This document shows, in pieces, positions 1-61,298 of a DNA stretch of 64,000 nucleotides. Under the pieces are notes generated by a model. It was not told the DNA's origin. It searched no databases and saw only the letters and a list, made by a program, of their open reading frames with translations. Position 1 is the stretch's first letter. Each line of letters opens with the position of its first letter. The DNA lies in the NCBI GenBank assembly GCA_961205875.1, contig OY540813.1:19253001-19317000 (forward strand), written 5' to 3'. Both the position numbers and the translations under genes were made by a program. The stretch is from Sialis fuliginosa (Eukaryota; Arthropoda; Insecta; Megaloptera; Sialidae).

Positions 1-3000
1 ATCGACGACGTCTGGTTTGTCAGCAGTTTCAGGTGTTTTAGCTTTAATTTCGTCTAGTGGTGATTTAGGTGCTTCATCGACCGGTGAAGGTTCTGTGACC
101 TTTTCAATTATTTTGTCTATTTTTTCAACCGCCTTTGTCACTTCTGTGACCTCGACAACTTTTTCAACAGATTCAATTTTCTCTGGTATTGTCTCTACAG
201 CTTTTTCATCGACGACGTCTGGTTTGTCAGAAGTTTCAGGTGTTTTAGCTTTAATTTCGTCTAGTGGTGATTTAGGTGCTTCATCGACCGGTGACGGCTC
301 TGACACCTTTTCAATTATTTTGTCTATTTTTTCAACCGCCTTTGTCACTTCTGTGACCTCGACAACTTTTTCAACAGATTCAACAGATTCAACTGTCTCT
401 GGTATTTTTTCTACAGCTTTTTCATCGACGACGTCTGGTTTGTCAGTAGTTTCAGGTGTTTTAGCTTTAATTTCGTCTATTAGTGATTTAGGTGCTTCCT
501 CGACCGGTGAAGGCTCTGACACCTTTTCGATTATTTTGTCTATTTTTTCAACCGCCTTTGTCACTTCTGTGACCTCGACAACTTTTTCAACAGATTCAAC
601 TTTCTCTGGTATTTTTTCTACAGCTTTTTCATCGACGACGTCTGGTTTGTCAGCAGTTTCAGGTGTTTTAGCTTTAATTTCGTCTAGTGGTGACTTAGGT
701 GCTTCATCGACCGGTGAGGGCTCTGACACCTTTTCGATTATTTTGTCTATTTTTTCAACCGCTTTTGTCACTTCTGTGACCTCGACAACTTTTTCAACAG
801 ATTCAACTTTCTCTGGTATTTTCTCTACAGCTTTTTCATCGACGACGTCTGGTTTGTCAGCAGTTTCAGGTGTTTTAGCTTTAATTTCGTCTATTAGTGA
901 TTTAGGTGCTTCCTCGACCGGTGAAGGCTCTGACACCTTTTCGATTATTTTGTCTATTTTTTCAACCGCCTTTGTCACTTCTGTGACCTCGACAACTTTT
1001 TCAACAGATTCAACTTTCTCTGGTATTTTCTCTACAGCTTTTTCATCGACGACGTCTGGTTTGTCAGCAGTTTCAGGTGTTTTAGCTTTAATTTCGTCGA
1101 TTGGTGATTTAGGTGCTTCCTCGACCGGTGAAGGCTCTGACACCTTTTCAATTATTTTGTCTATTTTTTCTACCGCTTTTGTCACTTCTGTGACCTCGAC
1201 AACTTTTTCAACAGATTCAACTTTCTCTGGTATTTTCTCTACAGCTTTTTCATCGACGACGTCTGGTTTGTCAGCAGTTTCAGGTGTTTTAGCTTTAATT
1301 TCGTCTATTGGTGATTTAGGTGCTTCCTCGACCGGTGAAGGCTCTGACACCTTTTCAATTATTTTGTCTATTTTTTTAACCGCCCTAGTCACTTCTGTGA
1401 CTTCGACAACTTTTTCAATAGATTCAACTTTCTCTGGTATTTTCTCTACAGCTTTTTCATCGACGACGTCTGGTTTGTCAGCAGTTTCAGGTGTTTTAGC
1501 TTTAATTTCGTCTAATGGTGATTTAGGTGCTTCGTCGACCGGTGAAGGCTCTGTGACCTTTTCAATTATTTTGTCTATTTTTTCAACCGTCTTTGTTACT
1601 TCTGGGATCTCGACAACTTTTTCAATAGATTCAACTTTCTCTGGTATTTTCTCTACAGCTTTTTCATCGACGACGTCTGGTTTGTCAGCAGTTTCAGGTG
1701 TTTCAGCTTTAATTTCGTCGATTGGTGATTTAGGTGCTTCCTCGACCGGTGAAGGCTCTGACACCTTTTCAATTATTTTGTCTATTTTTTCTACCGCTTT
1801 TGTCACTTCTGTGACCTCGACAACTTTTTCAACAGATTCAACTTTCTCTGGTATTTTCTCTACAGCTTTTTCATCGACGACGTCTGGTTTGTCAGCAGTT
1901 TCAGGTGTTTTAGCTTTAATTTCGTCTATTGGTGATTTAGGTGCTTCCTCGACCGGTGAAGGCTCTGACACCTTTTCAATTATTTTGTCTATTTTTTCAA
2001 CCGCCTTTGTCACTTCTGTGACCTCGACAACTTTTTCAACAGATTCAACTTTCTCTGGTATTTTCTCTACAGCTTTTTCATCGACGACGTCTGGTTTGTC
2101 AGCAGTTTCAGGTGTCTTAGCTTTAATTTCGTCTAGTGGTGATTTAGGTGCTTCATCGACCGGTGAGGGCTCTGACACCTTTTCGATTATTTTGTCTATT
2201 TTTTCAAACGCCTTTGTCACTTCTGTGACTTCGACAACTTTTTCAATAGATTCAACTTTCTCTGGTATTTTCTCTACAGCTTTTTCATCGACGACGTCTG
2301 GTTTGTCAGCAGTTTCAGGTGTTTTAGCTTTAATTTCGTCTAATGGTGATTTAGGTGCTTCCTCGACCGGTGAAGGCTCTGTGACCTTTTCAATTATTTT
2401 GTCAATTTTTTCAACCGTCTTTGTTACTTCTGTGATCTCGACAACTTTTTCAACAGATTCAACTTTCTCTGGTATTTTATCTACAGCTTTTTCATCGACG
2501 ACGTCTGGTTTGTCAGCAGTTTCAGGTGTCTTAGCTTTAATTTCGTCTAGTGGTGATTTAGGTGCACCATCGACCGGTGAAGGCTCTGACACCTCTTCAA
2601 ATATTTTGTCTATTTTTTCAACCGCCTTTGTCACTTCTGTGACCTCAACAACTTTTTCAACAGATTCAACTTTCTCTGGTATTTTCTCTACAGCTTTTTC
2701 ATCGACGACGTCTGGTTTGTCAGCAGTTTCAGGTGTCTTAGCTTTAATTTCGTCTAGTGGTGATTGTGGTGCTTCATCGACCGGTGAAGGTTCTGTGACC
2801 TTTTCAATTATTTTGTCTATTTTTTCAACCGCCTTTGTCACTTCTGTGACCTCGACAACTTTTTCAACAGATTCAATTTTCTCTGGTATTGTCTCTACAG
2901 CTTTTTCATCGACGACGTCTGGTTTGTCAGAAGTTTCAGGTGTTTTAGCTTTAATTTCGTCTAGGGGTGATTTAGGTGCTTCATCGACCGGTGACGGCTC

Positions 3001-6000
3001 TGACACCTTTTCAATTATTTTGTCTATTTTTTCAACCGCCTTTGTCACTTCTGTGACCTCGACAACTTTTTCAACAGATTCAACAGATTCAACTGTCTCT
3101 GGTATTTTCTCTACAGCTTTTTCATCGACGACGTCTGGTTTGTCAGAAGTTTCAGGTGTTTTAGCTTTAATTTCGTCTAGTGGTGATTTAGGTGCTTCAT
3201 CGACCGGTGAGGGCTCTGACACCTTATTGATTATTTTGTCTATTTTTTCAAACGCCTTTGTCACTTCTGTGACCTCGACAACTTTTTCAACAGATTTAAC
3301 TTTCTCTGGTATTTTCTCTACAGCTTTTTCATCGACGACGTCTGGTTTGTCAGCAGTTTCAGGTGTTTTTGCTTTAATTTCGTCTAGTGGTGATTTAGGT
3401 GCTTCATCGACCGGTGAAGGCTCTGACACCTTTTCAATTATTTTGTCTATTTTTTTAACCACCCTAGTCACTTCTGTGACTTCGACAACTTTTTCAATAG
3501 ATTCAACTTTCTCTGGTATTTTCTCTACAGCTTTTTCATCGACGACGTCTGGTTTGTCAGCAGTTTCAGGTGTTTTAGCTTTAATTTCGTCGATTGGTGA
3601 TTTAGGTGCTTCCTCGACCGGTGAAGGCTCTGACACCTTTTCAATTATTTTGTCTATTTTTTCTACCGCTTTTGTCACTTCTGTGACCTCGACAACTTTT
3701 TCAACAGATTCAACTTTCTCTGGTATTTTCTCTACAGCTTTTTCATCGACGACGTCTGGTTTGTCAGCAGTTTCAGGTGTTTTAGCTTTAATTTCGTCTA
3801 TTGATGATTTAGGTGCTTCCTCGACCGGTGAAGGCTCTGACACCTTTTCAATTATTTTGTCTATTTTTTCAACCGCCTTTGTCACTTCTGTGACCTCGAC
3901 AACTTTTTCAACAGATTCAACTTTCTCTGGTATTTTCTCTACAGCTTTTTCATCGACGACGTCTGGTTTGTCAGCAGTTTCAGGTGTCTTAGCTTTAATT
4001 TCGTCTAGTGGTGATTTAGGTGCTTCATCGACCGGTGAGGGCTCTGACACCTTTTCGATTATTTTGTCTATTTTTTCAAACGCCTTTGTCACTTCTGTGA
4101 CCTCGACAACTTTTTCAACAGATTCAACTTTCTCTGGTATTTTCTCTACAGCTTTTACATCGACGACGTCTGGTTTGTCAGCAGTTTCAGGTGTCTTAGC
4201 TTTAATTTCGTCTAGTGGTGATTTAGGTGCTTCATCGACCGGTGAAGGCTCTGACACCTTTTCAATTATTTTGTCAATTTTTTTAACCGCCCTAGTCACT
4301 TCTGTGACTTCGACAACTTTTTCAATAGATTCAACTTTCTCTGGTATTTTCTCTACAGCTTTTTCATCGACGACGTCTGGTTTGTCAGCAGTTTCAGGTG
4401 TTTTAGCTTTAATTTCGTCTAATGGTGATTTAGGTGCTTCCTCGACCGGTGAAGGATCTGTGACCTTTTCAATTATTTTGTCTATTTTTTCAACCGTCTT
4501 TGTTACTTCTGTGATCTCGACAACTTTTTCAACAGATTCAACTTTCTCTGGTATTTTCTCTACAGCTTTTTCATCGACGACGTCTGGTTTGTCAGCAGTT
4601 TCAGGTGTTTTAGCTTTAATTTCGTCTATTGGTGATTTAGGTGCTTCATCGACCGGTGAAGGCTCTGACACCTTTTCAATTATTTTGTCTATTTTTTTAA
4701 CCGCCCTAGTCACTTCTGTGACTTCGACAACTTTTTCAATAGATTCAACTTTCTCTGGTATTTTCTCTACAGCTTTTTCATCGACGACGTCTGGTTTGTC
4801 AGCAGTTTCAGGTGTTTTAGCTTTAATTTCGTCTATTGGTGATTTAGATGCTTCCTCGACCGGTGAAGGCTCCGACACCTTTTCAATTATTTTGTCTATT
4901 TTTTCAACCGCCTTTGTCACTTCTGTGACCTCGACAACTTTTTCAACAGATTCAACTTTCTCTGGTATTTTCTCTACAGCTTTTTCATCGACGACTTCTG
5001 GTTTGTCAGCAGTTTCAGGTGTCTTAGCTTTAATTTCGTCGATTGGTGATTTAGGTGCTTCCTCGACCGGTGAAGGCTCTGACACCTTTTCAATTATTTT
5101 GTCTATTTTTTCAACCGCCTTTGTCACTTCTGTGACCTCGACAACTTTTTCAACAGATTCAACTTTCTCTGGTATTTTCTCTACAGCTTTTTCATCGACG
5201 ACGTCTGGTTTGTCAGCAGTTTCAGGTGTTTTAGCTTTAATTTCGTCTAGTGGTGATTTAGGTGCTTCATCGACCGGTGAGGGCTCTGACACTTTTTCGA
5301 TTATTTTGTCTATTTTTTCAAACGCCTTTGTCACTTCTGTGACCTCGACAACTTTTTCAACAGATTTAACTTTCTCTGGTATTTTCTCTACAGCTTTTAC
5401 ATCGACGACGTCTGGTTTGTCAGCAGTTACAGGTGTTTTAGCTTTAATTTCGTCTAGTGGTGATTTAGGTGCTTCATCGACCGGTGAAGGCTCTGACACC
5501 TTTTCAATTATTTTGTCTATTTTTTCAACCGCCCTAGTCACTTCTGTGACTTCGACAACTTTTTCAATAAATTCAACTTTCTCTGGTATTTTCTCTACAG
5601 CTTTTTCATCGACGACGTCTGGTTTGTCAGCAGTTTCAGGTGTTTTAGCTTTAATTTCGTCGATTGGTGATTTAGGTGCTTCCTCGACCGGTGAAGGCTC
5701 TGACACCTTTTCAATTATTTTGTCTATTTTTTCAACCGCCTTTGTCACTTCTGTGACCTCGACAACTTTTTCAACAGATTCAACTTTCTCTGGTATTTTC
5801 TCTACAGCTTTTTCATCGACGACGTCTGGTTTGTCAGCAGTTTCAGGTGTCTTAGCTTTAATTTCGTCGATTGGTGATTTAGGTGCTTCCTCGACCGGTG
5901 AAGGCTCTGACACCTTTTCAATTATTTTATCTATTTTTTCAACCGCCTTTGTCACTTCTGTGACCTCGACAACTTTTTCAACAGATTCAACTTTCTCTGG

Positions 6001-9000
6001 TATTTTCTCTACAGCTTTTTCATCGACGACGTCTGGTTTGTCAGCAGTTTCATGTGTCTTAGCTTTAATTTCGTCTAGTGGTGATTTAGGTGCTTCATCG
6101 ACCGGTGAAGGCTCTGACACCTTTTCAATTATTTTGTCTATTTTTTCAACCGCCTTTGTCACTTCTGTGACCTCGACAACTTTTTCAACAGATTCAACTT
6201 TCTCTGGTATTTTCTCTACAGCTTTTTCATCGACGACGTCTGGTTTGTCAGCAGTTTCAGGTGTCTTAGCTTTAATTTCGTCGATTGGTGATTTAGGTGC
6301 TTCCTCGACCGGTGAAGGCTCTGACACCTTTTCAATTATTTTGTCTATTTTTTCAACCGCCTTTGTCACTTCTGTGACCTCGACAACTTTTTCAACAGAT
6401 TCAACTTTCTCTGGTATTTTCTCTACAGCTTTTTCATCGACGACGTCTGGTTTGTCAGCAGTTTCAGGTGTCTTAGCTTTAATTTCGTCGATTGGTGATT
6501 TAGGTGCTTCCTCGACCGGTGAAGGCTCTGACACCTTTTCAATTATTTTGTCTATTTTTTCAACCGCCTTTGTCACTTCTGTGACCTCGACAACTTTTTC
6601 AACAGATTCAACTTTCTCTGGTATTTTCTCTACAGCTTTTTCATCGACGACGTCTGGTTTGTCAGAAGTTTCAGGTGTTTTAGCTTTAATTTCGTCTAGT
6701 GGTGATTTAGGTGCTTCATCGACCGGTGAGGGCTCTGACACCTTTTCGATTATTTTGTCTATTTTTTCAAACGCCTTTGTCACATCTGTGACCTCGACAA
6801 CTTTTTCAACAGATTCAACTTTCTCTGGTATTTTCTCTACAGCTTTTACATCGACGACGTCTGGTTTGTCAGCAGTTTCAGGTGTTTTAGCTTTAATTTC
6901 GTCTAGTGGTGATTTAGGTGCTTCATCGACCGGTGAAGGCTCTGACACCTTTTCAATTATTTTGTCTATTTTTTCAACCGCCTTTGTCACTTCTGTGACC
7001 TCGACAACTTTTTCAACAGATTCAACTGTCTCTGGTATTTTCTCTACAGCTTTTTCATCGACGACGTCTGGTTTGTCAGCAGTTTCAGGTGTTTTAGCTT
7101 TAATTTCGTCTAGTGGTGATTTAGGTGCTTCATCGACCGGTGAGGGCTCTGACACCTTTTCGATTATTTTGTCTATTTTTTCAAACGCCTTTGTCACATC
7201 TGTGACCTCGACAACTTTTTCAACAGATTCAACTTTCTCTGGTATTTTCTCTACAGCTTTTACATCGACGACGTCTGGTTTGTCAGCAGTTTCAGGTGTT
7301 TTAGCTTTAATTTCGTCGATTGGTGATTTAGGTGCTTCATCGACCGGTGAAGGCTCTGACACCTTTTCAATTATTTTGTCTATTTTTTCAACCGCCTTTG
7401 TCACTTCTGTGACCTCGACAACTTTTTCAACAGATTCAACTGTCTCTGGTATTTTCTCTACAGCTTTTTCATCGACGACGTCTGGTTTGTCAGCAGTTTC
7501 AGGTGTTTTAGCTTTAATTTCGTCTAGTGGTGATTTAGGTGCTTCATCGACCGGTGAGGGCTCTGACACCTTTTCGATTATTTTGTCTATTTTTTCAAAC
7601 GCCTTTGTCACTTCTGTGACCTCGACAACTTTTTCAACAGATTCAACTTTCTCTGGTATTTTCTCTACAGCTTTTTCATCGACGACGTCTGGTTTGTCAG
7701 CAGTTTCAGGTGTTTTAGCTTTAATTTCGTCTAGTGGTGATTTAGGTGCTTCATCGACCGGTGAAGGCTCTGACACCTTTTCAATTATTTTGTCTATTTT
7801 TTTAACCGCCCTAGTCACTTCTGTGACTTCGACAACTTTTTCAATAAATTCAACTTTCTCTGGTATTTTCTCTACAGCTTTTTCATCGACGACGTCTGGT
7901 TTGTCAGCAGTTTCAGGTGTTTTAGCTTTAATTTCGTCGATTGGTGATTTAGGTGCTTCCTCGACCGGTGAAGGCTCTGACACCTTTTCAATTATTTTAT
8001 CTATTTTTTCAACCGCCTTTGTCACTTCTGTGACCTCGACAACTTTTTCAACAGATTCAACTTTCTCTGGTATTTTCTCTACAGATTTTTCATCGACGAC
8101 GTCTGGTTTGTCAGCAGTTTCATGTGTCTTAGCTTTAATTTCGTCTAGTGGTGATTTAGGTGCTTCATCGACCGGTGAAGGCTCTGACACCTTTTCAATT
8201 ATTTTGTCTATTTTTTCAACCGCCTTTGTCACTTCTGTGACCTCGACAACTTTTTCAACAGATTCAACTTTCTCTGGTATTTTCTCTACAGCTTTTTCAT
8301 CGACGACGTCTGGTTTGTCAGAAGTTTCAGGTGTTTTAGCTTTAATTTCGTCTAGTGGTGATTTAGGTGCTTCATCGACCGGTGAGGGCTCTGACACCTT
8401 TTCGATTATTTTGTCTATTTTTTCAAACGCCTTTGTCACTTCTGTGACCTCGACAACTTTTTCAACAGATTCAACTTTCTCTGGTATTTTCTCTACAGCT
8501 TTTACATCGACGACGTCTGGTTTGTCAGCAGTTTCAGGTGTTTTAGCTTTAATTTCGTCTAGTGGTGATTTAGGTGCTTCATCGACCGGTGAGGGCTCTG
8601 ACACCTTTTCGATTATTTTGTCTATTTTTTCAAACGCCTTTGTCACTTCTGTGACCTCGACAACTTTTTCAACAGATTCAACTTTCTCTGGTATTTTCTC
8701 TACAGCTTTTTCATCGACGACGTCTGGTTTGTCAGCAGTTTCAGGTGTTTTAGCTTTGATTTCGTCTAATGGTGATTTAGGTGCTTCCTCGACCGGTGAA
8801 GGCTCTGTGACCTTTTCAATTATTTTGTCTATTTTTTCAACCGTCTTTGTTACTTCTGTGATCTCGACAACTTTTTCAATAGATTCAACTTTCTCTGGTA
8901 TTTTCTCTACAGCTTTTTCATCGACGACGTCTGGTTTGTCAGCAGTTTCAGGTGTTTTAGCTTTAATTTCGTCTTGTGGTGGTTTAGGTGCTTCCTCGAC

Positions 9001-12000
9001 CTGTGAAGGCTCTGACACCTTTTCAATTATTTTGTCTATTTTTTCAACCGTCTTTGTTACTTCTGTGATCTCGACAACTTTTTCAACAGATTCAACTTTC
9101 TCTGGTATTTTATCTACAGCTTTTTCATCGACGACGTCTGGTTTGTCAGCAGTTTCAGGTGTTTTAGCTTTAATTTCGTCGATTGGTGATTTAGGTGCTT
9201 CCTCGACCGGTGAAGGCTCTGACACCTTTTCAATTATTTTGTCTATTTTTTCAACCGCCTTTGTCACTTCTGTGACCTCGACAACTTTTTCAACAGATTC
9301 AACTTTCTCTGGTATTTTCTCTACAGCTTTTTCATCGACGACGTCTGGTTTGTCAGCAGTTTCAGGTGTCTTAGCTTTAATTTCGTCTAGTGGTGATTTA
9401 GGTGCTTCATCGACCGGTGAAGGCTCTGACACCTTTTCAATTATTTTGTCTATTTTTTCAACCGCCTTTGTCACTTCTGTGACCTCGACAACTTTTTCAA
9501 CAGATTCAATTTTCTCTGGTATTTTCTCTACAGCTTTTTCATCGACGACGTCTGGTTTGTCAGCAGTTTCAGGTGTTTTAGTTTTAATTTCGTCTATTGG
9601 TGATTTAGGTGCTTCCTCGACCGGTGATGGCTCTGACACCTTTTCAATTATTTTGTCTATTTTTTCAACCGCCTTTGTCACTTCTGTGACATCGACAACT
9701 TTTTCAACAGATTCAACTGTCTCTGGTATTTTCTCTACGGCTTTTTCATCGACGACGTCTGGTTTGTCAGCAGTTTCAGGTGTTTTAGCTTTAATTTCGT
9801 CTAATGGTGATTTAGGTGCTTCCTCGACCGGTGAAGGCTCTGTGACCTTTTCAATTATTTTGTCTATTTTTTCAACCGTCTTTGTTACTTCTGTGATCTC
9901 GACAACTTTTTCAATAGATTCAACTTTCTCTGGTATTTTCTCTACAGCTTTTTCATCGACGACGTCTGGTTTGTCAGCAGTTTCAGGTGTTTTAGCTTTA
10001 ATTTCGTCTTGTGGTGGTTTAGGTGCTTCCTCGACCGGTGAAGGCTCTGACACCTTTTCAATTATTTTGTCTATTTTTTCAACCGTCTTTGTTACTTCTG
10101 TGATCTCGACAACTTTTTCAACAGATTCAACTTTCTCTGGTATTTTATCTACAGCTTTTTCATCGACGACGTCTGGTTTGTCAGCAGTTTCAGGTGTTTT
10201 AGCTTTAATTTCGTCGATTGGTGATTTAGGTGCTTCCTCGACCGGTGAAGGCTCTGACACCTTTTCAATTATTTTGTCTATTTTTTCAACCGCCTTTGTC
10301 ACTTCTGTGACCTCGACAACTTTTTCAACAGATTCAACTTTCTCTGGTATTTTCTCTACAGCTTTTTCATCGACGACGTCTGGTTTGTCAGCAGTTTCAG
10401 GTGTCTTAGCTTTAATTTCGTCTAGTGGTGATTTAGGTGCTTCATCGACCGGTGAAGGCTCTGACACCTTTTCAATTATTTTGTCTATTTTTTCAACCGC
10501 CTTTGTCACTTCTGTGACCTCGACAACTTTTTCAACAGATTCAATTTTCTCTGGTATTTTCTCTACAGCTTTTTCATCGACGACGTCTGGTTTGTCAGCA
10601 GTTTCAGGTGTTTTAGCTTTAATTTCGTCTATTGGTGATTTAGGTGCTTCCTCGACCGGTGATGGCTCTGACACCTTTTCAATTATTTTGTCTATTTTTT
10701 CAACCGCCTTTGTCACTTCTGTGACATCGACAACTTTTTCAACAGATTCAACTGTCTCTGGTATTTTCTCTACGGCTTTTTCATCGACGACGTCTGGTTT
10801 GTCAGCAGTTTCAGGTGTTTTAGCTTTAATTTCGTCGATTGGTGATTTAGGTGCTTCCTCGACCGGTGAAGGCTCTGACACCTTTTCAATTATTTTGTCT
10901 ATTTTTTCAACCGCCTTTGTCACTTCTGTGACCTCGACAACTTTTTCAACAGATTCAACTTTCTCTGGTATTTTCTCTACAGCTTTTTCATCGACGACGT
11001 CTGGTTTGTCAGCAGTTTCAGGTGTCTTAGCTTTAATTTCGTCTAGTGGTGATTTAGGTGCTTCATCGACCGGTGAAGGCTCTGACACCTTTTCAATTAT
11101 TTTGTCTATTTTTTCAACCGCCTTTGTCACTTCTGTGACCTCGACAACTTTTTCAACAGATTCAATTTTCTCTGGTATTTTCTCTACAGCTTTTTCATCG
11201 ACGACGTCTGGTTTGTCAGCAGTTTCAGGTGTTTTAGCTTTAATTTCGTCGATTGGTGATTTAAGTGCTTCATCGACCGGTGAAGGCTCTGACACCTTTT
11301 CAATTATTTTGTCTATTTTTTCAACCGCCTTTGTCACTTCTGTGACCTCGACAACTTTTTCAACAGATTCAACTTTCTCTGGTATTTTCTCTACAGCTTT
11401 TTCATCGACGACGTCTGGTTTGTCAGAAGTTTCAGGTGTTTTAGCTTTAATTTCGTCTAGTGGTGATTTAGGTGCTTCATCGACCGGTGAGGGCTCTGAC
11501 ACCTTTTCGATTATTTTGTCTATTTTTTCAAACGCCTTTGTCACTTCTGTGACCTCGACAACTTTTTCAATAGATTCAACTTTCTCTGGTATTTTCTCTA
11601 CAGCTTTTTCATCGACGACGTCTGGTTTGTCAGCAGTTTCAGGTGTCTTAGCTTTAATTTCGTCTAATGGTGATTTAGGTGCTTCCTCGACCGGTGAAGG
11701 CTCTGTGACCTTTTCAATTATTTTTTCTATTTTTTCAACCGTCTTTGTTACTTCTGTGATCTCGACAACTTTTTCAATAGATTCAACTTTCTCTGGTATT
11801 TTCTCTACAGCTTTTTCATCGACGACGTCTGGTTTGTCAGCAGTTTCAGGTGTTTTAGCTTTAATTTCGTCTTGTGGTGGTTTAGGTGCTTCCTCGACCG
11901 GTGAAGGCTCTGACACCTTTTCAATTATTTTGTCTATTTTTTCAACCGTCTTTGTTACTTCTGTGATCTCGACAACTTTTTCAACAGATTCAACTTTCTC

Positions 12001-39000: not shown

Positions 39001-42000
39001 TTCCTCGACCGGTGAAGGCTCTGACACCTTTTCAATTATTTTGTCTATTTTTTCAACCGCCTTTGTCACTTCTGTGACCTCGACAACTTTTTCAACAGAT
39101 TCAACTTTCTCTGGTATTTTTTCTACAGCTTTTTCATCGACGACGTCTGGTTTGTCAGAAGTTTCAGGTGTTTTAGCTTTAATTTCGTCTAGTGGTGATT
39201 TAGGTGCTTCATCGACCGGTGAAGGCTCTGACACCTTTTCAATTATTTTGTCTATTTTTTTAACCGCCCTAGTCACTTCTGTGACTTCGACAACTTTTTC
39301 AATAGATTCAACTTTCTCTGGTATTTTCTCTACAGCTTTTTCATCGACGACGTCTGGTTTGTCAGCAGTTTCAGGTGTTTTAGCTTTAATTTCGTCTTGT
39401 GGTGGTTTAGGTGCTTCCTCGACCGGTGAAGGCATTGACACCTTTTCAATTATTTTGTCTATTTTTTCAACCGCCTTTGTCACTTCTGTGACCTCGACAA
39501 CTTTTTCAACAGATTCAACTTTCTCTGGTATTTTTTCTATAGCTTTTTCATCGACGACATCTGGTTTGTCAGAAGTTTCAGGTGTTTTAGCTTTAATTTC
39601 GTCTAGTGGTGATTTAGGTGCTTCATCGACCGGTGAAGGCTCTGACATCTTTTCAATTATTTTGTCTATTTTTTCAACCGCTTTTGTCACTTCTGTGACC
39701 TCGACAGCTTTTTCAACAGATTCAACTTTCTCTGGTATTTTCTCTACAGCTTTTTCATCGACGACGTCTGGTTTGTCAGCAGTTTCAGGTGTTTTAGCTT
39801 TAATTTCGTCTAGTGGTGATTTAGGTGCTTCCTCGACCGGTGAAGGCATTGACACCTTTTCAATTATTTTGTCTATTTTTTCAACCGCCTTTGTCACTTC
39901 TGTGACCTCGACAACTTTTTCAACAGATTCAACTTTCTCTGGTATTTTTTCTACAGCTTTTTCATCGACGACGTCTGGTTTGTCAAAAGTTTCAGGTGTT
40001 TTAGCTTTAATTTCGTCTAGTGGTGATTTAGGTGCTTCATCGACCGGTGAAGGCTCTGACACCTTTTCAATTATTTTGTCTATTTTTTTAACCGCCCTAG
40101 TCACTTCTGTGACTTCGACAACTTTTTCAATAGATTCAACTTTCTCTGGTATTTTCTCTACAGCTTTTTCATCGACGACGTCTGGTTTGTCAGCAGTTTC
40201 AGGTGTTTTAGCTTTAATTTCGTCTTGTGGTGGTTTAGGTGCTTCCTCGACCGGTGAAGGCTCTGACACCTTTTCAATTATTTTGTCTATTTTTTCAACC
40301 GTCTTTGTTACTTCTGTGATCTCGACAACTTTTTCAACAGATTCAACTTTCTCTGGTATTTTATCTACAGCTTTTTCATCGACGACGTCTGGTTTGTCAG
40401 CAGTTTCAGGTGTTTTAGCTTTAATTTCGTCGATTGGTGATTTAGGTGCTTCCTCGACCGGTGAAGGCTCTGACACCTTTTCAATTATTTTGTCTATTTT
40501 TTCAACCGCCTTTGTCACTTCTGTGACCTCGACAACTTTTTCAACAGATTCAACTTTCTCTGGTATTTTCTCTACAGCTTTTTCATCGACGACGTCTGGT
40601 TTGTCAGCAGTTTCAGGTGTTTTAGCTTTAATTTCGTCGATTGGTGATTTAGGTGCTTCCTCGACCGGTGAAGGCTCTGACACCTTTTCAATTATTTTGT
40701 CTATTTTTTCAACCGCCTTTGTCACTTCTGTGACCTCGACAACTTTTTTAACAGATTCAACTTTCTCTGGTATTTTCTCTACAGCTTTTTCATCGACGAC
40801 GTCTGGTTTGTCAGAAGTTTCAGGTGTTTTAGCTTTAATTTCGTCTAGTGGTGATTTAGGTGCTTCCTCGACCGGTGAAGGCTCGGACACCTTTTCAATT
40901 ATTTTGTCCATTTTTTCAACCGCTTTTGTCACTTCTGTGACCTCGACAGCTTTTTCAACAGATTCAACTTCCTCAGGTATTTTCTCTACAGCTTTTTCAT
41001 CGACGACGTCTGGTTTGTCAGCAGTTTCAGGTGTTTTAGCTTTTATTTCGTCTATTGGTGATTTAGGTGCTTCCTCGACTGGTGAAGGCTCTGACACCTT
41101 TTCAATTATTTTGTCTATTTTTTCAATCGTCTTTGTCACTTCTGTGACTTCGACAACTTTTACAACAGATGGTATTTTCTCTACAGCTTTTTCATCGACG
41201 ACGTCTGGTTTGTCAGCAGTTTCAGGTGTTTTAGCTTTAATTTCGTCTAGTGGTGATTTAGGTGCTTCCTCGACCGGTGAAGGCTCTGACACCTTTTCAA
41301 TTATTTTGTCTATTTTTTTTACCGCCTTTATCACTTCTGTGACCTCGAAAATTTTTTCAACAGATTCAATTTTCTCTGGTATTTTCTCTACAGCTTTTTC
41401 ATCGACGACATCTGGTTTGTCAGAAGTTTCAGGTGTTTTAGCTTTAATTTCGTCTAGTGGTGATTTAGGTGCTTCCTCGACCGGTGAAGGCTCTGACACC
41501 TTTTCAATTATTTTGTCTATTTTTTCAACCACCTTTGTCACTTCTGTGACCTCGACAACTTTTTCAACAGTTTCAACTTTCTCTGGTATTTTCTCTACAG
41601 CTGTTTCATCGTAGACGTCTGGTTTGTCAGCAGTTTCAGGTGTTTTAGCTTTAATTTCGTCTAGTGGTGATTTAGGTGCTTCCTCGACCGGTGAAGGCTC
41701 TGACACCTTTTCAATTATTTTGTCTATTTTTTCAACCACCTTTGTCACTTCTGTGACCTCGACAACTTTTTCAACAGTTTCAACTTTCTCTGGTATTTTC
41801 TCTACAGCTGTTTCATCGTAGACGTCTGGTTTGTCAGCAGTTTCAGGTGTTTTAGCTTTAATTTCGTCTAGTGGTGATTTAGGTGCTTCATCGACCGGTG
41901 AAGGCTCTGACACCTTTTCGATTATTTTGTCTATTTTTTCAAACGCCTTTGTCACATCTGTGACCTCGACAACTTTTTCAACAGATTCAACTTTCTCTGG

Positions 42001-45000
42001 TATTTTCTCTACAGCTTTTTCATCGACGACGTCTAGTTTGTCATCAGTTTCAGGTGTTTTAGCTTTAATTTCGTCTAGTGGTGATTTAGGTGCTTCATCG
42101 ACCGGTGATGGCTCTGACACCTTTTCAATTATTTTGTCTATTTTTTCAACCGCCTTTGTCACTTCTGTGACCTCGACAACTTTTTTAACAGATTCAACTT
42201 TCTCTGGTATTTTCTCTACAGCTTTTACATCGACGACGTCTGGTTTGTCAGCAGTTACAGGTGTTTTAGCTTTAATTTCGTCTAGTGGTGATTTAGGTGC
42301 TTCCTCGACCGGTGATGGCTCTGACACCTTTTCAATTATTTTGTCTATTTTTTCAACCACCTTTGTCACTTCTGTGACCTCGACAACTTTTTCAACAGTT
42401 TCAACTTTCTCTGGTATTTTCTCTACAGCTGTTTCATCGTCGACGTCTGGTTTGTCAGCAGTTTCAGGTGTTTTAGCTTTAATTTCGTCTAGTGGTGATT
42501 TAGGTGCTTTCTCGACCGGTGAAGGCTCTGACACCTTTTCAAATACTTTGTCTATTTTTTCAACCGCTTTTGTCACTTCTGTGACCTCGACAACTTTTTC
42601 AACAGATTCAACTTTCTCTGGTATTTTCTCTACAGCTTTTTCATCGACGACGTCTGGTTTGTCAGCAGTTTCAGGTGTTTTAGCTTTAATTTCGTCTTGT
42701 GGTGGTTTAGATGCTTCCTCGACCGGTGAAGTCTCTGACACCTTTTCAATTATTTTGTCTATTTTTTCAACCACCTTTGTCACTTTTGTGACCTCGACAG
42801 CTTTTTCAACAGATTCAACTTTCTCTGGTATTTTCTCTATAGCTTTTTCATCGATGACGTCTGGTTTGTCAGCAGTTTCAGGTGTTTTAGCTTTATGTTC
42901 GTCTAGTGGTGATTTAGGTGCTTTCTCGACCGGTGAAGGCTCTGACACCTTTTCAAATACTTTGTCTATTTTTTCAACCGCTTTTGTCACTTCTGTGACC
43001 TCGACAAATTTTTCAACAGATTCAACTTCCTCAGGTATTTTCTCTACAGCTTTTTCATCGACGACGTCTGGTTTGTCAGCAGTTTCAGGTGTTTTAGCTT
43101 TAATTTCGTCTATTGGTGATTTAGGTGCTTCCTCGACTGGTGAAGGCTCTGACACCTTTTCAATTATTTTGTCTATTTTTTCAATCGTCTTTGTCACTTC
43201 TGTGACTTCGACAACTTTTTCAACAGATGGTATTTTCTCTACAGCTTTTTCATCGACGACGTCTGGTTTGTCAGCAGTTTCAGGTGTTTTAGCTTTAATT
43301 TCGTCTAGTGGTGATTTAGGTGCTTCCTCGACCGGTGAAGGCTCTGACACCTTTTCAATTATTTTGTCTATTTTTTCAACCATTTTTGTCACTTCTGTGA
43401 CCTCGACAAATTTTTCAACAGTTTCAACTTTCTCTGGTATTTTCTCTACAGCTGTTTTATCGTAGACGTCTGGTTTGTCAGCAGTTTCAGGTGTTTTAGC
43501 TTTAATTTTGTCTAGTGGTGATTTAGGTGCTTCATCGACCGGTGAAGGCTCTGACACCTTTTCAATTATTTTGTCTATTTTTTCAACCGCTTTTGTCACT
43601 TCTGTGACCTCGACAGCTTTTTCAACAGATTCAACTTTCTCTGGTATTTTCTCTACAGCTTTTTCATCGACGACGTCCGGTTTGTCAGCAGTTTCAGGTG
43701 TTTTAGCTTTAATTTCGTCTAGTGGTGATTTAGGTGCTTCCTCGACCGGTGAAGGCATTGACACCTTTTCAATTATTTTGTCTATTTTTTCAACCGCCTT
43801 TGTCACTTCTGTGACCTCGACAACTTTTTCAACAGCTTCAACTTTCTCTGGTATTTTCTCTACAGCTGTTTCATCGTCGACCTCTGGTTTGTCAGCAGTT
43901 TCAGGTGTTTTAGCTTTAATTTCGTCTAGTGGTGATATAGGTGCTTTCTCGACCGGTGAAGGCTCTGACACCTTTTCAAATACTTTGTCTATTTTTTCAA
44001 CCGTCTTTGTTACTTCTGTGATCTCGACAACTTTTTCAACAGATTCAACTTTCTCTGGTATTTTTTCTACAGCTTTTTCATCGACGACGTCTGGTTTGTC
44101 AGCAGTTTCAGGTATTTTAGCTTTAATTTCGTCTATTGGTGATTTAGGTGCTTCCTCGACTGGTGAATGCTCTGACACCTTTTCAATTATTTTGTCTATT
44201 TTTTCAACCACCTTTGTCACTTCTGTGACCTCGACAACTTTTTCAACAGTTTCAACTTTCTCTGGTATTTTCTCTACAGCTGTTTCATCGTCGACGTCTG
44301 GTTTGTCAGCAGTTTCAGGTGTTTTAGATTTAATTTCGTCTAGAGGTGATTTAGGTGCTTTCTCGACCGGTGAAGGCTCTGACACCTTTTCAAATACTTT
44401 GTCTATTTTTTCAACCGCTTTTGTCACTTCTGTGACCTCGACAACTTTTTCAACAGATTCAACTTCCTCAGGTATTTTCTCTACAGCTTTTTCATCGACG
44501 ACGTCTGGTTTGTCAGCAGTTTCAGGTGTTTTAGCTTTAATTTCGTCTAGTGGTGATTTAGGTGCTTCCTCGACCGGTGAAGGCTCTGACACCTTTTCAA
44601 TTATTTTGTCTATTTTTTCAACCGCCTTTATCACTTCTGTGACCTCGACAATTTTTTCAACAGATTCAACTTTCTCTGGTATTTTCTCTACAGCTTTTTC
44701 ATCGACGACGTCTGGTTTGTCAGCAGTTTCAGGTGTTTTACCTTTAATTTCGTCTAGTGGTGATTTAGGTATTTCCTCGACCGGTGACGGCTCTGACACC
44801 TTTTCAATTATTTTGTCTATTTTATCAACCGTCTTTGTCACTCTTGTGACCTCGACAACTTTTTCAACAGATTCAACTTTCTCTGGTATTTTCTCTACAG
44901 CTTTTTCATCGACGACATCTGGTTTGTCAGAAGTTTCAGGTGTTTTAGCTTTAATTTCGTCTAGTGGTGATTTAGGTGCTTCCTCGACCGGTGAAGGCTC

Positions 45001-48000
45001 TGACACCTTTTCAATTATTTTGTCTATTTTTTCAACCACCTTTGTCACTTCTGTGACCTCGACAACTTTTTCAACAGTTTCAACTTTCTCTGGTATTTTC
45101 TCTACAGCTGTTTCATCGTAGACGTCTGGTTTGTCAGCAGTTTCAGGTGTTTTAGCTTTAATTTCGTCTAGTGGTGACTTAGGTGCTTCATCGACCGGTG
45201 AAGGCTTTGACACCTTTTCAATTATTTTGTCTATTTTTTCAACCGCTTTTGTCACTTCTGTGACCTCGACAGCTTTTTCAACAGATTCAACTTTCTCTGG
45301 TATTTTCTCTACAGCTTTTTCATCGACGACATCTGGTTTGTCAGAAGCTTCAGGTGTTTTAGCTTTAATTTCGTCTAGTGGTGATTTAGGTGCTTCCTCG
45401 ACCGGTAAAGTCTCGGACACCTTTTCAATTATTTTGTCTATTTTTTCAACCGTCTTTGTCACTTCTGTGACCTCGACAACTTTTTCAACAGATTCAACTT
45501 TCTCTGGTATTTTCTCTACAGCTTTTTCATCGACGACATCTGGTTTGTCAGAAGTTTCAGGTGTTTTAGCTTTAATTTCGTCTAGTGGTGATTTAGGTGC
45601 TTCATCGACCGGTGATGGCTCTGACACCTTTTCAATTATTTTGTCTATTTTTTCAACCACCTTTGTCACTTCTGTGACCTCGACAACTTTTTCAACAGTT
45701 TCAACTTTCTCTGGTATTTTCTCTACAGCTGTTTCATCGTCGACGTCTGGTTTGTCAGCAGTTTCAGGTGTTTTAGCTTTAATTTCGTCTAGTGGTGATT
45801 TAGGTGCTTTCTCGACCGGTGAAGGCTCTGACACCTTTTCAAATACTTTGTCTATTTTTTCAACCGCTTTTGTCACTTCTGTGACCTCGACAACTTTTTC
45901 AACAGATTTAACTTCCTCAGGTATTTTCTCTACAGCTTTTTCATCGACGACGTCTGGTTTGTCAGCAGTTTCAGGTGTTTTAGCTTTAATTTCGTCTATT
46001 GGTGATTTAGGTGCTTCCTCGACTGGTGAAGGCTCTGACACCTTTTCAATTATTTTGTCTATTTTTTCAATCGTCTTTGTCACTTCTGTGACTTCGACAA
46101 CTTTTTCAACAGATGGTATTTTCTCTACAGCTTTTTCATCGACGACGTCTGGTTTGTCAGCAGTTTCAGGTGTTTTAGCTTTAATTTCGTCTAGTGGTGA
46201 TTTAGGTGCTTCCTCAACCGGTGAAGGCTCTGACACCTTTTCATTTATTTTGTCTATTTTTTCAACCGCCTTTGTCACTTCTGTGACCTCGACAACTTTT
46301 TCAACAGATTCAACTTTCTCAGGTATTTTCTCTACAGCTTTTTCTTCGACGACGTCTGGTTTGTCAGCAGTTTCAGGTGTTTTAGCTTTAATTTCGTCTA
46401 GTGGTGATTTAGGTGCTTTCTCGACCGGTGATGGCTCTGACACCTTTTCAATTATTTTGTCTATTTTTTCAACCGTCTTTGTCATTTCTGTGACCTCGAC
46501 AACTTTTTCAACAGATTCAACTTTCTCTGGTATTTTCTCTACAGCTGTTTCATCGTCGACGTCTGGTTTGTCAGCAGTTTCAGGTGTTTTAGCTTTAATT
46601 TCGTCTAGTAGTGATTTAGGTGCTTTCTCGACCGGTGAAGGCTCTGACACCTTTTCAATTATTTTGTCTATTTTTTCAACCGTCTTTGCCACTTCTGTGA
46701 CCTCGACAACTTTTTCAACAGATTCAACTTTCTCTGGTATTTTCTCTACAGCTTTTTCATCGACGACGTCTGGTTTGTCAGCAGTTTCAGGTGTTTTAGC
46801 TTTAATTTCGTCTAGTGGTGATTTAGGTGCTTCCTCGACCGGTGAAGGCTCTGACACCTTTTCATTTATTTTGTCTATTTTTTCAACCGCCTTTGTCACT
46901 TCTGTGACCTCGACAATTTTTTCAACAGATTCAACTTTCTCTGGTATTTTCTCTACAGCTTTTTCATCGACGACGTCTGGTTTGTCAGCAGTTTCAGGTG
47001 TTTTACCTTTAATTTCGTCTAGTGGTGATTTAGGTATTTCCTCGACTGGTGACGGCTCTGACACCTTTTCAATTATTTTGTCTATTTTATCAACCGTCTT
47101 TGTCACTTTTGTGACCTCGACAACTTTTTCAACAGATTCAACTTTCTCTGGTATTTTCTCTACAGCTTTTTCATCGACGACGTCTGGTTTGTCAGCAGTT
47201 TCAGGTGTTTTAGCTTTAATTTCGTCTATTGGTGACTTAGGTGCTTCCTCGACCGGTGATGGCTCTGACACCTTTTCAATTATTTTGTCTATTTTTTCAA
47301 TCGTCTTTGTCATTTCTGTGACCTCGACAACTTTTTCAACAGATTCAACTTTCTCTGGTATTTTCTCTACAGCTTTTTCATCGACGAAGTCTGGTTTGTC
47401 AGCAGTTTCAGGTGTTTTAGCTTTAATTTCGTCTAGTAGTGATTTAGGTGCTTTCTCGACCGGTGAAGGCTCTGACACCTTTTCAATTATTTTGTCTATT
47501 TTTTCAACCGTCTTTGCCACTTCTGTGACCTCGACAACTTTTTCGACAGATTCAACTTTCTCTGGTATTTTCTCTACAGCTTTTTCATCGACGACGTCTG
47601 GTTTGTCAGCAGTTTCAGGTGTTTTAGCTTTAATTTCGTCGATTGGTGATTTAGGTGCTTCCTCGACCGGTGAAGGCTCTGGCACATTTTCAATTATTGT
47701 GTCTATTTTTTCAACCGTCTTTGTCACTTCTGTGACCTCGACAACTTTTTCAACAGATTCAACTTTCTCTGGTATTTTCTCTACAGCTTTTTCATCGACG
47801 ACGTCTGGTTTGTCGGCAGTTTCAGGTGTTTTAGCTTTAATTTCGTCTAGTGGTGATTTAGGTGCTTCCTCGACCGGTGATGGCTCTGACACCTTTTCAA
47901 TTATTTTGTATATTTTTTCAACCGTCTTTGTCACTTCTGTGACATCGACAACTTTTTCAACAGATTCAACTTTCTCTGTTAATTTCTCTACAGCTTTTTC

Positions 48001-48621
48001 AACAACGACGTTTGGTTTGTCGGCAGTTTCAGGTGTTTTAGCTTTAATTTCGTCTATTGGTGATTTAGGTGCTTTCTCGACCGGTGATGGCTCTGACACC
48101 TTTTCAATTATTTTGTCTATTTTTTCAACCGTCTTTGTCACTTCTGTGACATCGACAACTTTTTCAACAGATTCAACTTTCTCTGGTATTTTCTCTACGG
48201 CTTTTTCATCAACGACGTCTGGTTTGTCAGCAGTTTCAGGTGTTTTAGCTTTAATTTCGTCGATTGGTGATTTAGGTGCTTTCTCGACCGGTGAAGGCTC
48301 TGGCACCTTTTTAATTATTGTGTCTATTTTTTCAACCGTCTTTGTCATTTCTGTGACCTCGACAATTTTTTCAACAGATTCAACTTTCTCTGGTATTTTC
48401 ACTACAGCTTTTTTATCGACGACGTCTGGTTTGTCAGCAGTTTCAGGTGTTTTATCTTTAATTTCGTCTTGTGGTGGTTTAGGTGCTTCCTCGACCAGTG
48501 AAGGCTCTGACACCTTTTCAATTATTTTGTCTATTTTTTCAACCGTCTTTGCCACTTCTGTGACCTCGACAACTTTTTCAACAGATTTAACTTTCTCTGG
48601 TATTTTCTCTACTGCTTTTTC
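1..48621 (-). repeat. Tandem array of 235 coding repeats, 69 aa / 207 bp each
   Basis: The unit boundary (plus-strand ATCGACGACGTC) recurs every 207 bp from position 1. Correcting for seven in-frame length variants, the boundary at 48,622 is exactly unit 235. The variants are +9 bp near 375 and 3,075, -3 bp near 35,171 and 37,652, and -12 bp near 41,168, 43,230 and 46,112. Each consensus unit starts VDEKAVEKIPEKVESVEKVV (residues 1-20). It continues with a Lys/Glu/Val/Ile stretch to about residue 39, then a Pro-rich part with Ser43-Pro44, Ser51-Pro52 (in KSP) and Thr60-Pro61, ending KPDV. The consensus contains no Gly, Cys, Arg, His, Met, Asn, Gln or aromatic residue. It has 12 Lys against 19 Asp/Glu, a net charge of about -7 per unit. 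Hydrophobic residues at 6, 9, 13, 16, 20, 29, 32, 36 and 39 give 3-4 spacing compatible with an amphipathic helix. The array continues beyond the left edge, so the true copy number is unknown. Confidence 0.95.
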
Positions 48622-51600
48622 ATCGACGACGTCTGGTTTGTCAGCAGTTTCTGGTGTTTCAGCTTTAATTTCGGTTATTAATGGTTTAGGTGTTTTCTCG
48701 TCTGGTGAAATCTCGAACGACTTGTCGATTGTTTTTCCAGATTTTATTTGTGTTGTGATATCATGTTCATATTTATATTTTAAAATGATGTCCTCTTGAG
48801 TTTTGGATAAATCCAATATTTCCAGCTGTGTATCTTCAGTTGTATCATCGCTTTCTGGCGATTCTGTGTATTCGTCAGTTTTGTTGTATGTTTCGATTTC
48901 TATTACATTATTTTCGACTTGTTTTTCTTCATATTGTTTCATATCGTTAATGGGTTCTCTTTTTTTGCTTTCTAGTTTCATTTTTGTTTGAGGTCCTTCC
49001 TCTTTTTGTATTTTTGTTGATTCTTTAGATTTATCAGGGATTAAATTTTTGTTTGAAAATTGTAAATGTGTATTATCTGTTTCAACATCCTCACTATAGA
49101 TTCTTTTGACAACAATTTGTTCACATATCGGTTCTTGGCATATACTATCGTATTCTTTGAATGTAGTATCCTCTAATGCAGTAATGAATTCGTCGATAAT
49201 GTTTTCTTTATCTATTTTCTTTTCTGCCATTAATTGTTTATCAATACTAGTCCTATTTAAATCACTATCTAAAATATCAGTACGTTTTGTTTCATTATCC
49301 ACAGCCATAGTTTCTGCAGAGTGTTCCTTCTGCTTCATTATCACAGTCTCATTTTTTATTTTATAATTACTGTACGCTTTTGGACTTTCAAATGTTTTTT
49401 CCAATTTTATTGGATGGACTTCTACATCTATACTATCTATCAAACTTTCTTTGGTATAAATTTTATCATGTTTTTTAGGTTGTGATTGTTTTGCATTAGG
49501 CAAACTTGTTTTTTCATCAGCTATTCTTTTTTCAATTGTTTCAATAACTTCTGATATATGAGGATAAGTAATTGGGGTTGGTATTTTTTCTGGTTTCGGT
49601 TCTTTTTGGTCAATTATTTGGTAATTATCATATTCATTAATTTTGGTCTTCTTTGTAGTTATACTTGTTTTTGGCTTTTCTTCATAATCTGCATCACTCA
49701 AGTCAGAAGACTGAGAAAATAATTTTTGAAGTTCTGCAATTTTTGGACCTACTTGTTTAATAAAAATTGATGATGTGTGAGTATCTTCGTGTTTTATATG
49801 TATTATCTTACTTTCTTCCATTTGCTTTTGTTTTTCATAACTAAATTCGTCTATTTGTTCATCAAACGAGGCTTCTGAAGATAATTTATATGGTACATCT
49901 TCACTATCAATTATACTTGACATTTCGTCTTCACTATCAACATTGAATTCTATTTTTTTTCGTATTTTATCAGTTATACTTTTAGATATTTGTGATTCTT
50001 CTATTAGTTTTACTATTGATTTTACGTCCTTAATATAATGAGAATCTTTTTGCAATGCGCTCTGTTCTTGAAGTACGTCAGGATCAATTGGACTGACTGT
50101 AGCATCTTTTGTTTCAACTGGATCTGTGATTGTAGCAACTTCTGATGTATCAACTGTTATTGAATCACCGAAATCGATAGGACTTGTTCCAATATCTGAA
50201 AATTGTGTCTGAATTCCTGGGTCATCAAAAACAAATTCATCTTGTATAAATGCTACATCATCTGCTTGAATTGGACTTAACCCAGCATCAGTGAGTTCTG
50301 CTTCTTCTTCAATGTCAACTGCCGTATCAGATATCATTTCCGTGATACCTGAAGTGTGTATAGGAGCTAATTTATCTACACTTGTAGCCATTGTAGTTTC
50401 TGTCATAGTGCCGCGAGTTAAAGATATTCCTGTATCTGTTATGTGATGTGACACACTTTCTTCACTTCCTGGAGTAGTGATAACCTGATCATTGTTAGTT
50501 TCATATCTATAAATACTCCTCTTATTACTAAAATTGACTTGCTCGTCACGTTTACGTTGTTCATTACTGGGCGGAATAATATATGCTGAATGTTTATCTA
50601 TTGGTGTTGTAGCTAACGGGGGCACAGTTGTAAATTCATCAGGAGTGGGTGCGCCGCCCATTCCGGCAGATGCTGTCATTCCAACGTCTAAACGTTCTGA
50701 AGTTTCTTTGCCAGATGTATCACGTCTTGTTGTTGTAACGGAAATGTGACTTTGCGAACGAATAGATATTTCAACATCACGAGATCCATACAAAGTAAGA
50801 CGACTTTCTGCCGTTGCTGATGCATCACGTGTACGGACTTCTTTACGACCAATTACAAGTTCAAGTGTCGGAGGAATATCATATTTGCTTTCAAATTCAC
50901 CTTTAGTAGGTTTAGGGGGGATTTGAGGTGATTCTACAATTTCACTTTTACTTTTTGACGGGTGATATTTATCCGCATGTCCCAGATCTTCAGAATAAAT
51001 GTCAGATTTTTCATCAATATCACGTTTTTTATAACTTTTGCCTTTATCATACTTAGGAGTTATATTATGATGTTCTTTTGTACTTATATTCTGAAATTCG
51101 TTGTCAATTTCAGATTCACTGGTCTCCTTACCTTCATCTAAATTAATATGCCGTTCTCTAATATATCTTCGTTTGGAAGATAAACGAGTATCCGAAACAG
51201 CGACATTTGTACTCCCTCTCGTGTGTTTAGATTTAATCAAAAACGTTTCGTTGTCAGTGACAATTTCGTTGTCTGCACCACCATGAAGACGTTCAACATT
51301 CTTTCCGTTCTTGCGCTCATAGTCTTCTGGATTTTTAGAATCTCTGGTACCTTTTTCCTCTGGCGTAATGAGACGTTTAATATCAAGTACTCCTGGACGT
51401 GTAACAGTGAAAGGCAGTATAGGTGTTTCAACATCGAGATCTTCAGTTGATGCCAGTCTCTTGCGAGCATTGGACATGAGATTGGATTGGTTACGGTAAT
51501 ATTGATTAACGTCATCATAGATTGTAATGCTGTCAAGATTGGCTGGTGAAACTGCATCAGATGTTTCAAGTAAATAATCCTCGTCGCGGAAACCATCCGT

Positions 51601-51672
51601 GTCCAAGGAGTCGTCATCTTCTTGAGGCGAAGCTGTTTCTATTCCATTTGACAGTTGATTGTAATTGTGGTG
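1..51672 (-). CDS. Giant repeat protein exon, partial (at least 17,224 codons, open past the left edge)
   Basis: Reading the minus strand with codons on plus positions 1-3, 4-6 and so on, I find no stop between an in-frame TAA at 51,673-51,675 and position 1. The product has 1,017 unique residues followed by 235 copies of a 69-residue repeat. The first in-frame Met is codon 66 (51,475-51,477). The codons before it encode an ordered-looking acidic segment that includes DDDSLDTDGFRDEDYLLE, so the exon is probably entered by splicing near 51,635-51,655 (AG dinucleotides follow ATGGAAT, AAAC and CTCA). The C-terminus lies outside the window. All seven length variants among repeats are multiples of three, which strongly supports translation. 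The protein is acidic and Lys/Glu/Val/Pro-rich, with no enzyme motif, signal peptide or membrane segment seen. Family knowledge suggests a cytoskeletal linker (giant ankyrin, MAP1B/Futsch, nesprin or titin-like tails), but none is demonstrated. Confidence 0.85.
48622..51672 (-). other. Unique N-terminal part of the giant open frame (1,017 codons)
   Basis: This is the non-repetitive head of the giant frame, to the right of the array. It is hydrophilic, mostly acidic and Ser/Thr-rich, and looks disordered. Basic patches occur early (NARKRLAS near codon 70, SSKRRYIRER near codon 160). A Gly/Pro-containing stretch, ASAGMGGAPTPDEF, lies near codon 335. Three similar Ser-Pro-Ile motifs (GLSPIQADD, GTSPIDFGD, TVSPIDPD) lie between about codons 460 and 530. 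The last 30 or so codons before the array (ISPDEKTPKPLITEIKAETP) are a diverged partial repeat, so the array grades into the head. I recognise no folded domain. ZU5, death, calponin-homology or spectrin domains, if present, would be in exons outside this segment. Confidence 0.8.
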
Positions 51673-53200: not shown

Positions 53201-53263
53201 ATAGTTTGTACAAAATTTGTCCAAATCATTGGGAGCTTATGGACTTGGCACATATTATATTCT

Positions 53264-53382
53264 CAGGCCCAGCGACAGAAATGTCGGTGTCCATTATTTA
53301 TATCAAATTATCTATATCACATGGAGCCCCAAAGTCCAAGCCTGGTATAGCTGTACCCCTAGCCCTCTTTGTCGCCGGGCCT
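53264..53382. mobile_element. Short MITE candidate with CAGGCCC/GGGCCT ends
   Basis: The left end CAGGCCCAGCGACAGAAA is mirrored at the right end by TTTGTCGCCGGGCCTT, with about two mismatches over the paired ends. The interior (about 120 bp) is less AT-rich than its flanks. Flanks on both sides contain TTATAT-like sequence (left TTATATTCT, right TTATATAC), which could be a target-site duplication, but its exact length is unclear. The two short open frames here (about 53,206-53,438) run through it and look spurious. Confidence 0.45.
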
Positions 53383-59672: not shown

Positions 59673-59679
59673 GTATACA

Positions 59680-61290: not shown

Positions 61291-61298
61291 ATATATCT

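Follow-up and report, generated by a model that had tools for sequence, protein, structure and literature searches.

Introduction

Giant ankyrins, which contain a very long exon, are described in a comparative survey as present in all bilaterian groups examined (PMC5135030). In protostomes, the long exon follows the death domain; among the surveyed exons (n=30) its length amounts to 8,103 ± 4,850 bp, its product is biased towards Ser, Glu, Thr, Asp, Lys and Pro (S/T/E/D/K/P, >55%), and a subset contains arrays with repeat numbers ranging from 5 to >160, where recognisable repeats are common to very closely related species only (PMC5135030). The XL exon of Drosophila, with 93 repeats of 76 residues, constitutes the largest open frame in the fly genome, and two insect Ank genes are reported to be without long exons (PMC5135030). 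Here, we describe a minus-strand open reading frame of 66.4 kb from the insect Sialis fuliginosa, most of which is contained in a stretch of 64,000 nucleotides (C5:19253001-19317000, referred to as the window, on contig OY540813.1 of an assembly of 392 Mb in 20 contigs), and which, judged from the domains encoded upstream of it, we assign with good confidence to an Ank2-like ankyrin gene of this insect, as its giant long exon of the XL type.

In Drosophila, the large isoforms Ank2-L and Ank2-XL are both neuronal, with Ank2-L connecting a synaptic adhesion molecule to microtubules and Ank2-XL organising presynaptic microtubules together with Futsch/MAP1B (PMC6703079, PMC4958632). In animals that lack neurofilaments, axon diameter is determined by a complex of Ank2-XL, Ank2-L and Futsch (PMC6131297). 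A role as molecular spacer has been proposed for the repeats, of which a fraction suffices for axon diameter (PMC5135030).

Results

Extent of the open reading frame

A direct stop scan of window positions 1-51672 bears out the claim of the original prediction that the minus strand contains a stop-free frame of exactly 17,224 codons, in sequence without any N. After addition of 100 kb on either side, the same frame was found to continue for 14.8 kb past the edge of the window, where the leftward extension proposed in that prediction reaches a stop at C5:19238244, behind the end of a repeat array and a unique tail. The open frame of 51.7 kb thus exists and forms part of a longer one of 66,429 bp, equally free of N, whose 22,143 codons would encode a product of 2,446 kDa. 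The idea of one enormous minus-strand coding exon is in this way supported and its size turns out to have been underestimated, while the view that neither end is located in the window proved half correct, as the upstream stop and the likely acceptor region are found inside and only the downstream end outside of it. The remark that tools requiring a stop easily miss such a frame also holds. The frame product consists of three parts, a unique head of about 1,000 residues, 294 complete repeat units and a unique tail of 853 residues, and is located as follows (negative positions precede the first letter of the window):

Window -14756..51672 (C5:19238244-19304672; in-window part 1..51672), minus strand: stop-free frame of 66,429 bp from frame reading, proposed giant exon
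Window 48673..51672, minus strand: unique N-terminal head of up to 1,000 residues, 54% S/T/E/D/K/P
Window 1..48672, minus strand: in-window part of the repeat array with units of mostly 69 residues (207 bp), from Tandem Repeats Finder and unit parsing

At their own base composition, the head and the tail would be open by chance with a log10 probability of -34 and -28, respectively, and in 200 base shuffles of each, the longest open run comprised 147 codons for the head and 122 for the tail. A chance open frame is ruled out by these shuffles, by the test of stop-making changes described below and by length changes that comprise whole codons. Pfam searches returned no confident match for the head (the best being a sub-threshold domain of unknown function at E 0.14) and none for the tail (870 residues given). 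Similarly, a structure search with a 133-residue frame inside the head region (window 51237-51638, in a different reading frame) found no match.

An ankyrin core upstream of the giant frame

The assignment to the ankyrins is based on exons that precede the giant frame on the same strand and which were located on C5 by reading frames. Read along the minus strand, these are arranged in the canonical order of ankyrin repeats, ZU5, UPA, Death and linker, followed by the long frame. Thirteen ankyrin-repeat signature motifs are distributed over seven minus-strand frames (window ~99.8-116 kb), one of which matches Pfam Ank with E 6.6e-31. The best solved-structure matches of the ZU5-region exon are to Ankyrin-2 (6m3q and 4d8o, E 1.1e-26 and 1.5e-26), whereas the UPA exon matches Pfam UPA_2 (E 4.6e-23) and structures of ankyrins 1-3. 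Behind Death, two exons were recognised by eye as death-domain tail and linker.

C5:19345172-19345402, minus strand: ZU5 match, E 1e-19, spanning one stop
C5:19323979-19324140, minus strand: Death domain match, E 5.9e-9 (exon search E 2.4e-11), with matches to structures of ankyrins 1-3
Window 68044-68742, 69331-69681 and 70961-71308, minus strand: upstream exons beyond the window from frame reading, the first being the linker and the last the death domain

The locus thus contains N-terminal ankyrin repeats, a ZU5/UPA cassette and a Death domain after UPA, as in canonical ankyrins, and a same-strand 66.4-kb frame 3' of the Death exon with an overall bias for S/T/E/D/K/P, as in giant ankyrins, where the exon is known here as an open frame in DNA. 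Since ankyrin core exons are found upstream on the same strand and in canonical order, the frame would correspond to the long exon that follows the death domain in giant ankyrins. A second ankyrin gene was found on another contig (C9:20252001-20282000), where the largest frame in the 30 kb read, which included UPA-like and death-domain-tail exons identified by eye, comprises 366 codons; it is followed on its 3' side and the same strand by what we take to be a sirtuin-like gene. As long frames are found in the ankyrin gene on C5 and none in the stretch on C9, the former was assigned to insect Ank2 rather than Ank. The insect origin guessed in the original prediction is likewise in line with a pair of ankyrin genes of which one has long frames behind the death domain and the other, within these 30 kb, none. 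Muscle titin/PEVK, Msp300 and Futsch, first ideas based on composition, were dropped after ZU5, UPA and Death exons had been found upstream; titin and kettin PEVK segments share a repetitive composition rich in Pro, Glu, Val and Lys, but the frames upstream of the sequence described here carry ankyrin core domains.

Splice edges and phase

Candidate splice sites were scored with weights taken from general knowledge. The acceptor candidates at the start of the giant frame are in phase 1, which makes them compatible with the upstream frames, whose donors are in phase 1 as well. This phase also prevails in the tail, where the best-scoring donor is in phase 1 in ten of ten frames (several with low scores) and the best acceptor in seven of ten. 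With phase-1 edges prevailing across the tail (window -44796..71308, minus strand), long exons could be included or skipped leaving the frame unchanged, and the tail could thus represent a cassette arrangement for very large isoforms.

Window 51613..51631, minus strand: three candidate acceptor AGs just inside the frame, all phase 1, from splice scoring
Window 51673..64000, minus strand: putative upstream (5') intron, AT-rich and with no frame >100 codons

Organization of the repeat array

Tandem Repeats Finder reports a single array at window positions 1-48709 with a period of 207, 235 copies and 95% matches. As assembled, the entire array extends over about 61 kb and 20,290 residues, with 286 of its 294 complete units containing exactly 69 residues and the other eight 65, 68 or 72. 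The unit consensus is:

EIKAKTPETADKPDVVDEKAVEKIPEKVESVEKVVEVTEVTKAVEKIDKIIEKVSEPSPVEEAPKSPLD

When the genome was searched with this consensus, all 150 scored hits, of 297 candidates, were located inside the giant frame. There are 220 distinct units, 115 of the 294 have an identical twin and the longest exact direct repeat within the frame is 1,685 bp. The identity between units is flat at lags of 1 to 100 (95.4-95.8%) and then declines slowly to 94.1% at a lag of 250, while the mean divergence from the consensus peaks at 6.8 and 7.4 differences per unit close to the two ends, compared to 4.4-6.2 in between. Both properties are as expected under homogenisation by unequal exchange. Each unit contains a Pro-rich charged linker and, in alternation with it, a stretch of high hydrophobic moment that begins near residues 37-40 and that could form a short helix. 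The share of S/T/E/D/K/P residues amounts to 65.6% in the whole product, 66.5% in the array, 56.9% in the tail and 54.0% in the head.

Signs of selection on the reading frame

The openness of the array is partly inherited, because its copies derive from one stop-free unit, and we have therefore examined the changes between the 286 standard units and the consensus. In the sense frame, none of the 32 single changes of the consensus that would create a stop is seen, compared to 16.2 expected from the frequency that these change types have at the remaining sites (model P 10^-10.1). Counted by copies, the 1,573 differences consist of 1,111 replacements, 462 silent changes and 0 stops, where 110 stops would be expected. 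In the three antisense phases used as controls, the number of stop-making changes found is 6 of 19, 14 of 22 and 3 of 27 (9.3, 14.1 and 10.1 expected; 23 of 68 in total), leaving the sense frame as the only one among the four phases compared that shows none. The third antisense phase is also stop-free in its consensus and contains 12 stops in the array (by copies 6 compared to 84 expected). Since this phase is itself short of stops, the model P value is too strong: the difference between 0/32 and 3/27 alone is not significant, whereas the difference between 0/32 and the 23/68 over all antisense phases is. The eight units that differ in length do so by -4, -1 or +3 codons, without any frameshift. 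Relative to expectation, radical replacements are found at 0.72-fold, conservative replacements at 1.9-fold and synonymous changes at 1.3-fold frequency by copies. We conclude that the reading frame is kept, while exact residues are under mild constraint only.

Weighing the assignment

A number of observations weigh against the described frame being the long exon of an ankyrin gene. At its 5' edge, the acceptors are weak, with a poor pyrimidine tract and none among the four best-scoring, and the frame is separated by about 16 kb from the last upstream ankyrin-tail frame. The best-scoring in-frame acceptor is located about 240 bp further in, at 51392, and is also in phase 1, which leaves the 5' edge of the exon uncertain by about this distance. 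Two donors could serve the 3' end, one in phase 1 at window -14571 and one in phase 0 at -14651, and the acceptors of the first downstream frame (frame B, introduced below) score poorly, so that the exon joined downstream is ambiguous. In the core, a whole-genome search with the Ank_2 profile shows no C5 row among the 150 of 210 matches listed, the ZU5 match spans one stop, which is probably an exon edge, the ZU5-region exon has no Pfam family match and the Death matches are partial over the model, with the remainder taken to sit in the next exon. A pattern search for relatives of the head in viral contigs gave no match, and among these contigs, to which the search was confined, no orthologue of the exon was found for comparison. 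With respect to the product, the Val and Ile content of the array (24.8%) is outside the bias described for giant ankyrins and the head, at 54% S/T/E/D/K/P, is slightly below the >55% figure. In the array, the copy number depends on the assembly, and the stop-free antisense phase is short of stops as well (3/27 where 10.1 are expected). The dN/dS-like ratio of 0.77 reflects mild residue constraint, the gap between classes of distinct changes is small (silent 64/141, conservative 46/111, radical 124/337) and the excess of conservative changes by copies is owed largely to Glu-to-Asp.

Among the alternative explanations, the one that survives best assumes a real exon whose length was inflated by the assembly, with the true allele containing far fewer 207-bp units. 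Long tandem arrays are classic assembly traps and the 115 units with an identical twin would fit such an artefact. We still consider it improbable, in view of exact repeats that do not exceed 1,685 bp and 220 of 294 units being distinct, two properties that could allow accurate reads of 10-20 kb to place units uniquely, and of a divergence that reaches its maxima near the two ends, as it would in a natural array, in a stretch that does not contain any N.

It is less probable still that the array is a satellite-like, never translated expansion in an ankyrin intron, with an openness owed to its descent from a stop-free unit. Such a unit would leave most copies open, the dN/dS-like ratio is just 0.77 and the antisense phase with stop-free consensus has accumulated just 12 stops and 3 of 27 distinct stop-making changes; yet the sense frame shows 0/32 such changes compared to 23/68 in antisense, and insertions and deletions comprise whole codons only. 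Moreover, the unique head, the array and the unique tail share one frame, with head and tail being too long for chance, and position and composition agree with known giant ankyrin exons (PMC5135030).

Equally remote appears a separate, non-ankyrin gene on this strand, either nested or adjacent, which would be compatible with the ~16-kb gap and with in-frame ATGs in the head (the first at residue 66) but is at odds with upstream donors and candidate acceptors of the giant frame all being in phase 1 and with the long exon directly after the death domain being the rule in protostome giant ankyrins (PMC5135030). We thus maintain the assignment as giant long exon of an Ank2-like gene.

Downstream long frames and neighbouring genes

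Downstream of the giant frame, the minus strand contains five further frames, termed B (787 codons), D (448), E (3,475), F (271) and G (2,336), and a doubtful frame C of 250 codons.

Window -17359..-14999, minus strand: frame B, 787 codons, directly after the giant frame, with PAM2 match
Window -36529..-26105 (C5:19216471-19226895), minus strand: frame E, 3,475 codons, from frame reading

Frame B contains a PAM2-type motif, KLSVNAPEFVP, which scores 22.9 bits at a Pfam cut-off of 20. PAM2 motifs bind poly(A)-binding protein, and their occurrence in an ankyrin tail is unexpected. Frame E carries a second array of 45 units of 51 residues, which is unrelated to the 69-residue unit. A Pfam search with 2,176 of its 3,475 residues matched Apolipoprotein A1/A4/E (8.9e-64), and the same residues likewise exceed the thresholds of Phasin, Col-Pyo_DNase, MID_MedPIWI and Elf4; we read these matches as probably reflecting generic helix-like repeats, not descent. 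For frame G, a Pfam search with 1,598 of 2,336 residues found no match, and a search of viral contigs returned two pattern matches and no relative. Beyond frame G, a convergent neighbour on the plus strand (window about -66000..-53155) displays LIM and homeobox letters and is presumably Islet/tailup-like. This opposite-strand gene ends the neighbourhood beyond G, and it is therefore plausible, from strand, phase and position, that frames B-G belong to the same ankyrin as 3' exons.

Elsewhere in the genome, single frames of >1,000 codons that contain ankyrin repeats are unusually abundant on C4, C8-C11, C13, C14 and other contigs, several of them near the low end of the contig; these are unrelated to the locus on C5.

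Comparison with known giant ankyrins

The closest described system is the Ank2-XL isoform of Drosophila melanogaster (~1,200 kDa), with which the locus shares the Ank-ZU5-UPA-Death core, a long exon after the death domain, a central part composed of tandem repeats that are nearly identical, the presence of more than one long exon and a second ankyrin gene without long exons. The two differ in the dimensions of the array, with 294 units of 69 residues here and 93 units of 76 residues in the fly, and the frame of 66.4 kb is about three times as long as the fly array of ~21 kb. They also differ in the presence of three frames >2,000 codons after the death domain (22,143, 3,475 and 2,336) and, in one of these, of a second array (45 units of 51 residues) unrelated to the first. 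C. elegans UNC-44, a Ciona ankyrin and the vertebrate ankyrin-G and -B equally contain a very long, S/T/E/D/K/P-rich exon (PMC5135030), although in chordates it precedes the death domain and in vertebrate ankyrin-G it is without repeat array. By our arithmetic, the mean and standard deviation (SD) published for the survey (PMC5135030) restrict the length of any of its exons to about 34 kb (29/sqrt(30) SDs above the mean), which places 66 kb outside any of them. The exon is thus very probably of a known kind and of extreme size. In the literature searched, which covered titles and openings of abstracts, with subscription papers outside its scope, a coding exon of such size is not named.

Discussion

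Our analysis points to an Ank2-like gene whose long exon, if transcribed as read, would greatly exceed the giant ankyrin exons of the published survey. To our knowledge, it would then be among the longest coding exons known. In the proposed mechanism, a neuronal splice form would join the death-domain exons to the giant exon, which alone would contribute an ankyrin mass of about 2.4 MDa. With an ankyrin core of usual size, the total would rise to about 2.6 MDa, and together with the downstream long frames possibly to >3 MDa. Binding of membrane proteins and spectrin would fall to the N-terminal core, whereas the array of ~20,300 residues, in which a Pro/Glu/Lys-rich linker alternates with a short amphipathic stretch, might act as a flexible spacer of great length or as a multivalent binder and reach the lattice of microtubules and MAP1B (Futsch). 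At 0.36 nm per residue, its 20,290 residues would correspond to a fully extended chain of about 7 micrometres. The array would grow and be homogenised by unequal exchange between near-identical units, with selection against stops and frameshifts filtering its variants.

From position and composition, we infer that the protein may play the same role at microtubules and in axons as Drosophila Ank2-XL. The study of Stephan et al. 2015 (Dev Cell) is said to be the source on XL and axon calibre. More speculatively, a neuronal ankyrin that contains ~22,100 residues from a single coding exon of ~66 kb and, with core and long frames, 24,000 to ~31,000 residues in total (mass 2.6 to >3 MDa) might, given the chain length mentioned above, be long enough to extend across an entire axon and act as a length-encoded ruler, where the repeat number would tune axon calibre between species, an idea that we put forward as tentative and for the time being rather doubtful.

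An exon of this kind would test the limits of splicing, with exon definition across 66 kb, of translation and of array maintenance, and might be overlooked or truncated by annotation tools and in assemblies from short reads. The locus would provide a natural length variant of Ank2-XL and, if the array is a spacer that determines axon diameter or microtubule spacing, its tripled size yields a prediction on axonal architecture that could be tested in this insect.

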